A stretch of 64,000 bases of DNA, taken from positions 248,001-312,000 of the forward strand of contig NZ_JAODVR010000001.1 in NCBI RefSeq assembly GCF_025399835.1, in the 5' to 3' direction. The notes beneath the pieces were generated by a model. The model worked only from the letters and a program-made list of their open reading frames with translations. It did not search any database and had not been told where the DNA came from. The position numbers and the translations under genes are program-made. Shown here piece by piece: positions 15,479-20,617 of this stretch (the first letter of the stretch is position 1; the number at the start of each line of letters is the position of its first letter). The stretch comes from Haloarchaeobius sp. HME9146. GTDB lineage: Archaea; Halobacteriota; Halobacteria; Halobacteriales; Natrialbaceae.

Positions 15479-15513
15479 TCGGCGAGACGACCGGTTCCGG
15501 TACACTTTTGACT

Positions 15514-15531
15514 TTTTAGGCAGACCTAAAA
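15514..15531. promoter_or_regulatory. DtxR-like operator, site 1
   Basis: TTTTAGG-CAGA-CCTAAAA is a perfect 7-bp inverted repeat with a 4-bp spacer, ending 3 bp before the ATG at 15535 and just after a BoxA-like ACTTTTGA. The TTAGG/CCTAA half-sites resemble those of DtxR-family metalloregulators, which haloarchaea use for iron and manganese control. Confidence 0.65.
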
Positions 15532-15534
15532 CAC

Positions 15535-15642
15535 ATGAGCAAGCGTCAGTCACAGCCTCGCACGACTCGTTCTCGCGCCGCCGTCGGCCTGTTCCGTGGC
15601 ATCTTCGGGACGCCCGAACCGGACGACGAGACCGAGGAGTAA
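15535..15642 (+). CDS. 35-residue peptide under a DtxR-like operator
   Basis: ATG to TAA encodes a 35-residue peptide: a basic, Ser/Arg/Gln-rich first half (MSKRQSQPRTTRSRAAVG), a short hydrophobic centre (LFRGIFG) and an acidic end (PEPDDETEE). Third positions are GC-rich as in real genes, and it sits exactly behind a promoter and a perfect operator, which argues for a true gene despite its size. If the operator reading is right, it would be made under metal limitation. Function unknown. Confidence 0.55.
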   Translation: MSKRQSQPRTTRSRAAVGLFRGIFGTPEPDDETEE

Positions 15643-15672
15643 CGGTCGAATAATCCGATTCCCGACCGACTC

Positions 15673-16134
15673 TCAGTCCGAGAGCTTCGCGTCCAGTTGT
15701 CGCGCCACTACGTCGTCGTCGAAGGGTCCGTCGTCGCGCGAGAGGTGGATGAGCGGCGCGTTCTCCATCTGTATCCACTCGCCGTCACGGCCGTTGCTCA
15801 GCGTCACGGACTCCTGGGTTCTCGGGAGGCCGTTCGAGCGCATCCCCTTCGTGCGGGAGCGGGTCGTCGCGACGTGCAGGGGCGTGTCGTCGTCCTCGTA
15901 GACGGTCGGTCGGTAGGTCGGATGCTCGGGGTCAAGTTCGCACATCGCGGCCTGGTACTCCTGGGTCGCTTCGGCGGCCTTCTGGGCATCGGCGCGGGAG
16001 TCGAACCGGGCGCCAGTGGCGGGCTCGGGGCGGTGGCCGGTGGTCGAACAGGCGACGATGAAACCGCCGTCGTCGCTGGCGAGGTCGGCGACGGTTCGGC
16101 GAGCGTTCGGGAGGCGCTCGGCGGGGTCGGTCAT
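15673..16134 (-). CDS. Haloarchaeal small protein, paralogue A, in the DtxR-like locus
   Basis: 153 residues. The N-terminal half (LASDDGGFIVACSTTGHRPE, then FDSRADAQKAAEATQEYQAA and DPEHPTYRPTVYED) is similar over about 60 residues to the protein encoded at 16303-16599, so the two are diverged copies. The C-terminal half (residues about 85-153) is unique. No catalytic motif is evident; the pattern of a short strand pair plus a helix suggests a small binding domain. ATG 16134 is chosen because a perfect operator with embedded BoxA lies 12-29 bp upstream. Confidence 0.7.
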   Translation of the reverse strand: MTDPAERLPNARRTVADLASDDGGFIVACSTTGHRPEPATGARFDSRADAQKAAEATQEYQAAMCELDPEHPTYRPTVYEDDDTPLHVATTRSRTKGMRSNGLPRTQESVTLSNGRDGEWIQMENAPLIHLSRDDGPFDDDVVARQLDAKLSD

Positions 16135-16145
16135 ACCAGCCACTA

Positions 16146-16163
16146 TTTTAGGCCATCCTAAAA
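16146..16163. promoter_or_regulatory. DtxR-like operator, site 2
   Basis: TTTTAGG-CCAT-CCTAAAA, identical in both arms and spacer length to the site at 15514-15531. Read on the minus strand, its TTTTAGG lies 24-29 bp before the ATG at 16134, so the operator overlaps the BoxA of that gene and binding should block TBP. Confidence 0.68.
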
Positions 16164-16211
16164 GAGTGCCGATTCGACCCGCAGCGACCCCAATTGTCTC
16201 GAATCCAACCA

Positions 16212-16229
16212 CTTTTGGGCAACCTAAAA
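16212..16229. promoter_or_regulatory. DtxR-like operator, degenerate site 3
   Basis: CTTTTGG-GCAA-CCTAAAA keeps a perfect right half-site and 5 of 7 bases of the left one. It lies about 75 bp upstream of the rightward paralogue gene at 16303, in the shared intergenic region. Confidence 0.45.
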
Positions 16230-16302
16230 ACATTGTATCGGTCTCGGCAGTATCTCGCGCAATCCATAACGATTTTTTATTCATAGGTCTTCGACACGAC
16301 TG

Positions 16303-16599
16303 ATGGCACGCTATCGCGACGGGTTCGGCGAGATTCGAGCCCACCTGGATGCCCTCCACGCCCCGGGTGGCCCGTACCACGTGGTCTGTGCGAAGACCGG
16401 CGAGACCCCGGCCCCACTGAAGGGGCTCCGGTTTGACGACCGCCAGACCGCCGCGGAGGCTACCGAGGTCGCAGCGACCTACCGTGCGTACCTGCGCCTC
16501 TACGACCCATCGGTCCCCTTCACCGACCTCATCGTCACCGAAGACGTCGAGGTCGAGGCAGAAGCGGGCCGACAGCCCGCCACGGTCAACCGGGACTGA
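16303..16599 (+). CDS. Haloarchaeal small protein, paralogue B, in the DtxR-like locus
   Basis: 98 residues. GGPYHVVCAKTGETPAPLKG, FDDRQTAAEATEVAATYRAY and LYDPSVPFTDLIVTED align with the corresponding parts of the protein at 15673-16134. It lacks that protein's C-terminal half. The gene is divergent from its paralogue and has its own promoter: TTTTTTAT at 16272-16279 is 24-31 bp before the ATG. Function unknown; the shared operators imply joint regulation. Confidence 0.72.
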   Translation: MARYRDGFGEIRAHLDALHAPGGPYHVVCAKTGETPAPLKGLRFDDRQTAAEATEVAATYRAYLRLYDPSVPFTDLIVTEDVEVEAEAGRQPATVNRD

Positions 16600-18966: not shown

Positions 18967-19701
18967 ATGACTGGAATCGAAACCATCGGGGAGACCGGGA
19001 ACGTGTTGCTCACCGACCGCGAGCACGAACAGGAGTACTGTGGTGACCTGCTCGACGCGAGCGCGACCGACACTCGTGCGGAGCTGACGGTCTCGTTCCC
19101 GAAGGCACAGACGGAGAAGACCGGCTTCGGGAGCCTCTCGTCCAGCCAGCCGGCGAAGAAGGGTGTCATCTCGGTCGGCGACGTGATGCGGTCTGCCGCC
19201 TCGAGCAGCCCCGATTTCTCGGCTCCCGTGCCGATGGACGCCGTCGAGGACCCGGGCAACCTGCAGGCCATCGGGACCTCCATCAGCCGGTTCTGCGAGC
19301 AGTGGGACCGCCAGGCGTTCGACATCGTGGTGTGTTTCGACTCGCTGACCGAGCTACTCGAGCACGCGAGTACCGAGGCCGTCTTCCAGTTCTGCCACGT
19401 CCTCAACAGCCGTCTCGGGTCGGTCGACGCGCTGGCACACTTCCATCTCGACCCGGACGCACACGACGACGAGACGGTCGCCACCTTCCAGTCGATATTC
19501 GACGAGACCGTCGGTGAGACCACGGACGCAGACGTAATCGAGGAGTTCGCCCAGGCCACCGACGACGACATCGCCGCGCTCACCGACGGCTGGGGCGAGG
19601 AGGCACAGTACTCCATCGTCGGCGATGGCGACCAGGACCGCCCCGACGAGGTCACCGAGGCCTCCGACGAGGAGATCGCCGAGCTGCTCGACGGCTGCTG
19701 A
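18967..19701 (+). CDS. Putative degenerate RecA/KaiC-like signalling protein, copy 1
   Basis: 244 residues. NVLLTDREHE at the start, GVISVGDVMRS, then a conserved block FDIVVCFDSLTELLEHASTE, VFQFCHVLNSRLGSVDALAH and FHLDPDAHDDETVATFQSIF. The strand order and FDSLTxLL remind me of haloarchaeal RecA/KaiC-like signalling proteins lacking Walker A, but the fold assignment is inference. The acidic C-terminus ends in EASDEEIAELLDG. It is about 40% alike to the next gene. The promoter is probably the AT-richer stretch near 18870-18900. Confidence 0.65.
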   Translation: MTGIETIGETGNVLLTDREHEQEYCGDLLDASATDTRAELTVSFPKAQTEKTGFGSLSSSQPAKKGVISVGDVMRSAASSSPDFSAPVPMDAVEDPGNLQAIGTSISRFCEQWDRQAFDIVVCFDSLTELLEHASTEAVFQFCHVLNSRLGSVDALAHFHLDPDAHDDETVATFQSIFDETVGETTDADVIEEFAQATDDDIAALTDGWGEEAQYSIVGDGDQDRPDEVTEASDEEIAELLDGC

Positions 19702-19786
19702 CCGGCCAGAAATAATTAATAGTGAGGAATCTAACGATGGACGCAATAGCCTCGGTCGGTGAACCGGGGGGGGTTGGGTGTCAGGT

Positions 19787-20617
19787 ATGATGGACGACGG
19801 GAAGACAGCGGATGCACGAACAGTTCTCCTGCTCGACGAGACGACGGCATCGGAGTCCGGCGAGCACTGCGACGAGTTGATGCACGTCTGTGAGGCGAGC
19901 AGACGCGCGGAACTCACGGTGACGTTCCCGCAAGACGTGACCGATAGCGTCGACTTCGCGTCGCTCTCCGGCGGTCGCCAGCCCGCGAAACGCGGGGTCA
20001 TCACCGTCGGCGAGACGATGCGCGCCGTCGGTGCCGGCGAGCCCGATTTCGACGAACCACTCGTCGAGGACACCGTCGCGGACCCGGGCGACCTCCAGAG
20101 CCTCGGCCAGAAGATAAGCCGGTTCTGCAAGGTGTGGACGAACGCTGGCTACGAGATATCGGTCTGCTTCGACTCCCTGAGCGATCTCCTGGCCTCGAAC
20201 GACCCCGAAGTCGTCTTCAAGTTCTGCCACGTCCTCGCTGGCCGTCTCACCTCGGTCGGTGCTGTCGCTCACTTCCACCTCGACCCGACCGAACACAGCC
20301 AGCAGCTCCAGTTGACCTTCGAGCAGATCTTCGACGAGACCCTGCTCGAGGAGATCGACGTGGAACACCTCGTGCCGACACGGCGGTCGACCGCCAGCGA
20401 CACCGACGTGGCCCAGGGCACGGCCTCGCTGACCCTCGAGGACACCGACGACGGTGGCACAGCACCCCCCGACAGCGGCAGTTCCGCCGGCGAGTCCAGC
20501 CCCGAGACGGGGGGCGATACGGCCGACCCTGCAGGCGATGACCCCACCCGAGAGACCGGCGGAGAGGCCTCCGACGAGGAGATAGCCAAGCGCTTTTCAG
20601 CGATGAACGGACCCTGA
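19787..20617 (+). CDS. Putative degenerate RecA/KaiC-like signalling protein, copy 2
   Basis: 276 residues. The same blocks as its upstream paralogue occur in the same order: ARTVLLLDE, AELTVTFPQDV, QPAKRGVITVGETMRAVGAG, YEISVCFDSLSDLLASNDPE, VVFKFCHVLAGRLTSVGAVA, HFHLDPTEHS. A long acidic linker rich in Asp, Gly, Thr and Pro (about 205-260) follows, ending in the shared EASDEEIA. Tandem duplication is clear. AATAATTAATAG at 19710-19721 is a likely promoter for it. ATG 19787 is preferred; a second ATG follows directly. Confidence 0.65.
   Translation: MMDDGKTADARTVLLLDETTASESGEHCDELMHVCEASRRAELTVTFPQDVTDSVDFASLSGGRQPAKRGVITVGETMRAVGAGEPDFDEPLVEDTVADPGDLQSLGQKISRFCKVWTNAGYEISVCFDSLSDLLASNDPEVVFKFCHVLAGRLTSVGAVAHFHLDPTEHSQQLQLTFEQIFDETLLEEIDVEHLVPTRRSTASDTDVAQGTASLTLEDTDDGGTAPPDSGSSAGESSPETGGDTADPAGDDPTRETGGEASDEEIAKRFSAMNGP

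Follow-up and report, generated by a model that had tools for sequence, protein, structure and literature searches.

Between a cupin gene and a helicase gene, the window (by which we mean the whole 64,000-nucleotide stretch of DNA analysed) carries a gene for a 35-residue micropeptide, a divergent pair of genes for DUF7552 proteins and three copies of the palindrome TTTTAGG-N4-CCTAAAA, here called the box (Table 1). An initial sequence-only reading placed perfect boxes at 15514 and 16146 and a degenerate one at 16212, and these positions are correct. With up to three mismatches allowed, the window contains four matches to the motif against 0.13 expected from dinucleotide shuffles, two of the four being overlapping registers of the degenerate site at 16212, and none of 100 such shuffles reached four matches. 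All three box positions are retained in the sister species, where they depart from the inner sequence TTTAGG-N4-CCTAAA at 0, 1 and 1 positions, and the counterpart of the 16212 box reads TTTTGG-N4-CCTAAA. The suspected paralogy of the divergent pair also holds: both proteins match the Pfam DUF7552 profile (82.8 and 100.2 bits against a curated cut-off of 27) and are therefore paralogues. Another apparent pair of paralogues, in tandem, is formed by two adjacent same-strand ORFs of 244 and 279 residues with similar sequence elsewhere in the window (18967-19701 and 19778-20617).

Table 1. Features of the locus (window positions), boxes at other sites of the genome and the DtxR-family regulators encoded by it
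Feature	Position	Strand	Remarks
TATA-like stretch	15501..15511	+	directly upstream of the 15514 box; expected core promoter of a leaderless gene
Putative iron box, perfect (TTTTAGG-CAGA-CCTAAAA)	15514..15531	.	upstream of the micropeptide gene, 3 nt short of the ATG
35-residue micropeptide gene	15535..15642	+	family with PRxxRAxxWAxVYxxLFG and acidic tail
153-aa DUF7552 protein gene	15673..16134	-	ATG at 16134; Pfam PF24422, E=2e-23
Putative iron box, perfect (TTTTAGG-CCAT-CCTAAAA)	16146..16163	.	11 nt upstream of the minus DUF7552 gene; over its likely TATA/start region
Putative iron box, degenerate (CTTTTGG-GCAA-CCTAAAA)	16212..16229	.	between the divergent genes; 2 mismatches
TATA-like stretch of the plus gene (attttttattc)	16270..16280	+	identical in the sister species
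98-aa DUF7552 protein gene	16303..16599	+	Pfam PF24422, E=7e-29
Tandem boxes	contig 2, 648409/648445		5' of siderophore-type ABC substrate-binding protein gene
Tandem boxes	contig 2, 654330/654366		5' of second siderophore-type ABC substrate-binding protein gene
Box	2167521		5' of another glycosyltransferase-like gene
Box	2174552		5' of Fe(III)-type ABC binding protein gene
Box	2175793		5' of glycosyltransferase-like gene adjoining the Fe(III)-type binding protein gene
Box	C1:2370709		downstream of dpsA, upstream of macrodomain gene; target less clear
Box	2749055		5' of Rieske-type protein gene
Tandem boxes	C1:2981627/2981662 (L008:4128-4180)		target less clear; nearest is an ORF of 113 aa whose N-terminal extension contains Cys
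Box	3345215		5' of ZIP-family transporter gene
SirR-like regulator			229 aa
Idr-like regulator			about 141 aa; beside ferritin-like gene
TroR-like regulator			237 aa; after metal ABC permease gene

The boxes had also been thought to stand at or near promoters, and here the placement is less uniform than proposed. Those at 15514 and 16146 cover the position where a leaderless transcript would be expected to begin, whereas the one at 16212 overlaps no core promoter, the TATA-like element of the plus gene lying about 40 nt downstream of it. The TATA-like stretch ahead of the 15514 box was placed on the basis of other members of the micropeptide family, most of which, when their own box abuts the ATG, have cttttg or ttaagt 2-8 nt 5' of the box. 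In many of these self-boxed copies the ATG follows the box by 1-8 nt, with the TATA-like sequence just before it, and the box would therefore cover the start region of the expected leaderless transcript. The position of the 16212 box upstream of, rather than over, a TATA-like element, as well as its retention in degenerate form in the sister species, would suit a regulator that activates, or that both activates and represses, with 16212 as an activator site for the plus gene. We hold this to be rather unlikely, however, because the perfect boxes overlap start regions, as repression predicts.

The peptide, the DUF7552 pair and the boxes are all present between the cupin and helicase genes in the window genome and in its sister species. 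Four of the six genomes available for the genus have these two flanking genes side by side, and peptide, pair and boxes are all missing from between them. Since its components are present or absent as one, the block was presumably either cleanly inserted or cleanly lost, and because the whole of it is missing from four of the six genomes, it is, by this comparison, dispensable. In another genus of the family (G011), a boxed peptide occupies the same slot and a different gene replaces the pair. Presence or absence as a unit between these two genes in one genus could also point to a selfish or stress module, encoding for example a small toxic peptide, with a borrowed iron-type promoter; but relatives of the peptide are found within siderophore-uptake operons together with regulators (see below), and a match to known families is absent, which makes such a module highly improbable.

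Boxes and DtxR-family regulators

Across the whole genome (4.19 Mb), 15 sites match the box with at most two mismatches, against one for the reversed pattern, and two of the four perfect sites fall within the 0.7-kb interval of the window. The motif is thus rare, and most of its sites stand just 5' of genes for siderophore, iron or ZIP transport or of other iron-linked genes, at distances from a few bases to a few tens; the names given to these genes are inferred from a by-eye reading of the translations, made without a family search. In this genome dpsA was struck from the boxed genes, since the box in its vicinity lies downstream of it and 5' of the macrodomain gene; a boxed dpsA is present in another haloarchaeal genome (locus L168). 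Beyond this genome, 289 of the 292 haloarchaeal genomes scanned have the inner box in exact form, with up to 24 copies per genome, the reversed control giving mostly 0. TTTTAGG-N4-CCTAAAA is therefore most likely a haloarchaeal DtxR-type iron box. Tandem boxes, with starts 34-36 bp apart, are frequent 5' of binding-protein and DUF7552 genes, here and in many relatives, and this spacing suggests that two dimers bind cooperatively. Many haloarchaeal genomes also have an iron-boxed glycosyltransferase-like gene (M..DICVIVPTIREYE; L007:4116-5276), for which an obvious role in iron metabolism is absent.

Three clear DtxR-family regulators are encoded in the genome, one SirR-like, one Idr-like and one TroR-like. 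They were aligned with MntR, whose metal ligands include H77, E102 and H103 (B. subtilis numbering). The SirR and TroR proteins have H, E and H at these positions, and the Idr-like protein departs from the MntR ligands at two of the three. The short DtxR-like proteins encoded beside the micropeptide in other haloarchaea show a clear match to the DtxR N-terminal domain and a weak one to the metal-binding domain, and are closest to the Idr-like protein of this genome (35% identity). Among 32 of them, the residues aligned with H77, E102 and H103 are Y in 31, A in 27 and G in 29, respectively. With the canonical ligands replaced, canonical metal sensing seems to have been lost in the short proteins; since the Idr-like protein also departs at two ligand positions, however, they may use a different metal site. 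In haloarchaea, including Haloferax, the DtxR-family proteins Idr, SirR and TroR are reported to regulate iron homeostasis (PMC11349517).

The suggestion that the boxes are under DtxR-type metal control thus appears to be largely right, as judged from sequence: the motif is rare, its targets include iron-uptake genes and three DtxR-family regulators are encoded. What proved too narrow is the notion of a "microregulon", because the three sites of the locus belong to a genome-wide and class-wide iron regulon; the peptide, however, is a component absent from every family library searched. A regulon that senses manganese or zinc, with a TroR-like or SirR-like protein as the sensor, could be read from the boxed ZIP-family transporter gene (L011), from the location of the TroR-like gene after a metal ABC permease gene (L015) and from the canonical MntR-type ligands kept by SirR and TroR. 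We consider it improbable, because most boxed genes are for siderophore or ferric iron uptake, and because relatives have the peptide in siderophore ABC operons and a box before the DpsA gene. Regulation of the block by iron is likely.

The micropeptide family and the DUF7552 proteins

Over its 35 codons, the differences between the micropeptide gene and its copy in the sister species number 4 at first codon positions, 1 at second and 13 at third, and it is this bias of substitutions to third positions that makes the ORF look truly coding. A search with the single sequence returned the sister copy (80% identity) and two weak matches in other genera, each with a box 3-4 nt before the ATG; outside the one sister species the hits were mostly noise, and remote members were recognised by the box in front and then by a profile, built first from four sequences and afterwards extended to 20 rows. 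The 20-sequence profile (E up to 1e-3) picks up members of the family in 63 of the 391 haloarchaeal genomes searched, spread over 29 genera. The window peptide scores E=1.5e-12, but is itself one of the 20 rows of the profile; independent support for its membership comes from the weak pairwise matches in other genera that carry a box. A pattern combining the box, an ATG and TTCGG was tried as a peptide finder and discarded, as it retrieved mostly binding-protein genes and the glycosyltransferase-like gene rather than peptides.

The layout of the family is constant: a basic N-terminus with PRxxR, the core WAxVYxxLFG (AVGLFRGIFG in the window peptide) and an acidic tail, within 33-62 residues. 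No significant match to the micropeptide was found in Pfam, NCBIfam, PHROGs or PDB sequences, and AlphaFold2 predicts, with modest confidence, a single helix at residues 10-24. The idea of an amphipathic helix was dropped and membrane binding is not claimed, because the family shows hydrophobic moments that do not clearly exceed those of shuffled sequence. Taken on its sequence, the micropeptide is a real protein of a family that has no name or description.

Among 60 micropeptide loci, 17 have a box no more than 80 nt ahead of the peptide's ATG; in 32 the very next gene is that of a short DtxR-like regulator, and DUF7551/DUF7260 genes accompany the peptide, also in 32. At least one of these three ties to the iron regulon (box, DtxR-like gene or DUF7551/DUF7260) is found in 58 of the 60 loci, and one of the two untied loci (L313) has a box with three mismatches 11 nt before the ATG. 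For loci outside the set used to build the profile, the figure is 40 of 41. The window micropeptide has its own box and stands alone, with neither a DtxR-like neighbour nor DUF7260. A representative of the operon type occurs in Halobellus limi, where genes for an iron ABC permease, an ATPase, two SBPs, an FAD protein, a DUF7552 protein and a DUF7260 protein are followed by that for the micropeptide (WP_160113943.1, annotated as hypothetical only). Haloferax mediterranei has, on its plasmid pHME505, a related, weak-scoring and unannotated ORF that runs into the start of the regulator gene.

Copies of the micropeptide in operons carry a GGAGG-type ribosome-binding site, and there the ORF ends at, or runs into, the beginning of the DtxR-like gene. 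This arrangement, which is like that of a translational coupler, and the very short length of the ORF might be expected if the ORF were not a functional protein but served as a leader peptide, or came about as a by-product of a regulated small RNA. We regard that origin as quite unlikely, since families that share the basic-W/F-acidic layout have also kept the amino-acid sequence, the substitutions are biased to the third position, and many copies stand alone with a box of their own and no downstream partner.

Other small boxed ORFs were also seen. A protein of about 55 residues (PELSVCESAPGKAVFIECENSDGWIA), with no match in Pfam or NCBIfam, is boxed in other haloarchaea (L164:3562-3729, L168:1793-1960 and L171:3341-3508), where its gene comes after a short DtxR-like gene and before that for an Amphi-Trp-like protein. 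A boxed ORF of 46-48 residues (MSSDSSDGSFGSFLGRFRSRRTRLRVSACVAASRSIAV...) recurs in one genus (L115, L116; G148, G284) and is, by eye, unrelated to the micropeptide.

DUF7552 is haloarchaeal in our sample, being present in 125 of 194 genomes, and among 14 control genomes only Haloferax volcanii has it. Unlike the window pair, whose proteins are short and lack DUF7551 (PF24420), members from other genera usually have the domain at the start of a protein of about 305-315 residues, with DUF7551 after it in the same chain and a DUF7260 gene next in line. Within 350 nt upstream of the DUF7552 gene, 34 of 80 named loci contain an inner box with at most one mismatch (33 an exact one); two permuted motifs gave 0 of 80, as did a search for the box within the gene itself. 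Among the 30 best-scoring DUF7552 loci of a second sample, a box was found within about 320 nt in 23 and 1-1.3 kb upstream in four more. The AlphaFold2 model of the 98-residue protein has a pLDDT of 79, and the predicted DUF7552 structure gave no significant fold match in the PDB. A literature search found no paper naming DUF7552, DUF7551 or DUF7260.

Proposed role and parallels in known systems

We think it probable that the block forms a minor, outlying part of the haloarchaeal iron regulon, repressed when iron is sufficient, and that its peptide helps the uptake-and-control system. With iron sufficient, a DtxR-family repressor (SirR-, Idr- or TroR-like, one of the three) would occupy TTTTAGG-N4-CCTAAAA; because the box lies over the leaderless start region, just 3' of the TATA-like element, its occupation would block initiation at the peptide and minus DUF7552 genes. 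When iron is scarce, the repressor would leave, and the micropeptide and the DUF7552 proteins would be made alongside the siderophore and iron transporters. The micropeptide would then use its short W/F-rich helix to bind a protein partner and so aid the siderophore-uptake/control operon. In this scheme the box with its regulon context, the peptide family, its gene linkage and its coding signature are observed, and we infer the identity of the repressor, the metal, the direction of control and the function of the peptide. The presence of the micropeptide in a minority of haloarchaeal genomes, the lack of the block in four of the six genomes of the genus, the solitary position of the peptide gene in this genome and the third box, degenerate and off the core promoter, count against it. 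As the micropeptide is regularly found elsewhere in siderophore-uptake operons (DUF7552-DUF7551 / DUF7260 / micropeptide / short DtxR-like regulator), it is most likely a helper of the siderophore uptake-and-control system that acts via a protein partner, which is a reasoned guess. A bolder proposal, which we find distinctly unlikely, is that the micropeptide, made under iron starvation, binds the metal-blind DtxR-like regulators through the W/F-rich helix and replaces the metal as their switch, stand-alone copies such as that of the window acting in trans on the Idr-like regulator.

No part of an archaeal genome is annotated as sparsely as its small proteins. With its iron-box address, its occurrence in 29 haloarchaeal genera and its steady operon context beside DtxR-like regulators that seem unable to bind metal by the canonical route, the micropeptide is a good candidate for, and offers a testable case of, a small-protein layer in archaeal iron control. 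Moreover, the DUF7552, DUF7551 and DUF7260 proteins gain a first functional context, which is siderophore-iron uptake.

The micropeptide recalls E. coli MntS (42 aa, encoded beside mntR) in being a very small protein with a basic N-terminal part and a hydrophobic middle, and, at 32 of the 60 family loci though not in the window, in having its gene next to that of a DtxR/MntR-family regulator. MntS is repressed by MntR. It serves manganese rather than iron, however, and the haloarchaeal peptide gene, unlike that of MntS, is co-directional with the regulator gene and usually part of a siderophore operon. Because sequence similarity between the two is absent (hmmsearch score -2.2), the micropeptide at most works like MntS, its nearest functional parallel, and cannot be said to be an MntS. 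FbpB and FbpC of Bacillus, Fur-regulated small basic proteins that are very small and induced by iron starvation, differ in regulator family and lineage, and are likened to the micropeptide by description and not by sequence. The closest setting is the Idr/SirR/TroR iron regulon of Halobacterium and Haloferax, a likeness drawn from the regulators, of which this genome encodes the same three types, and from the targets, its rare perfect palindrome standing before siderophore and iron-uptake genes. The account of that regulon consulted here lists neither the micropeptide nor DUF7552 among the targets. What is new at this locus is the peptide.
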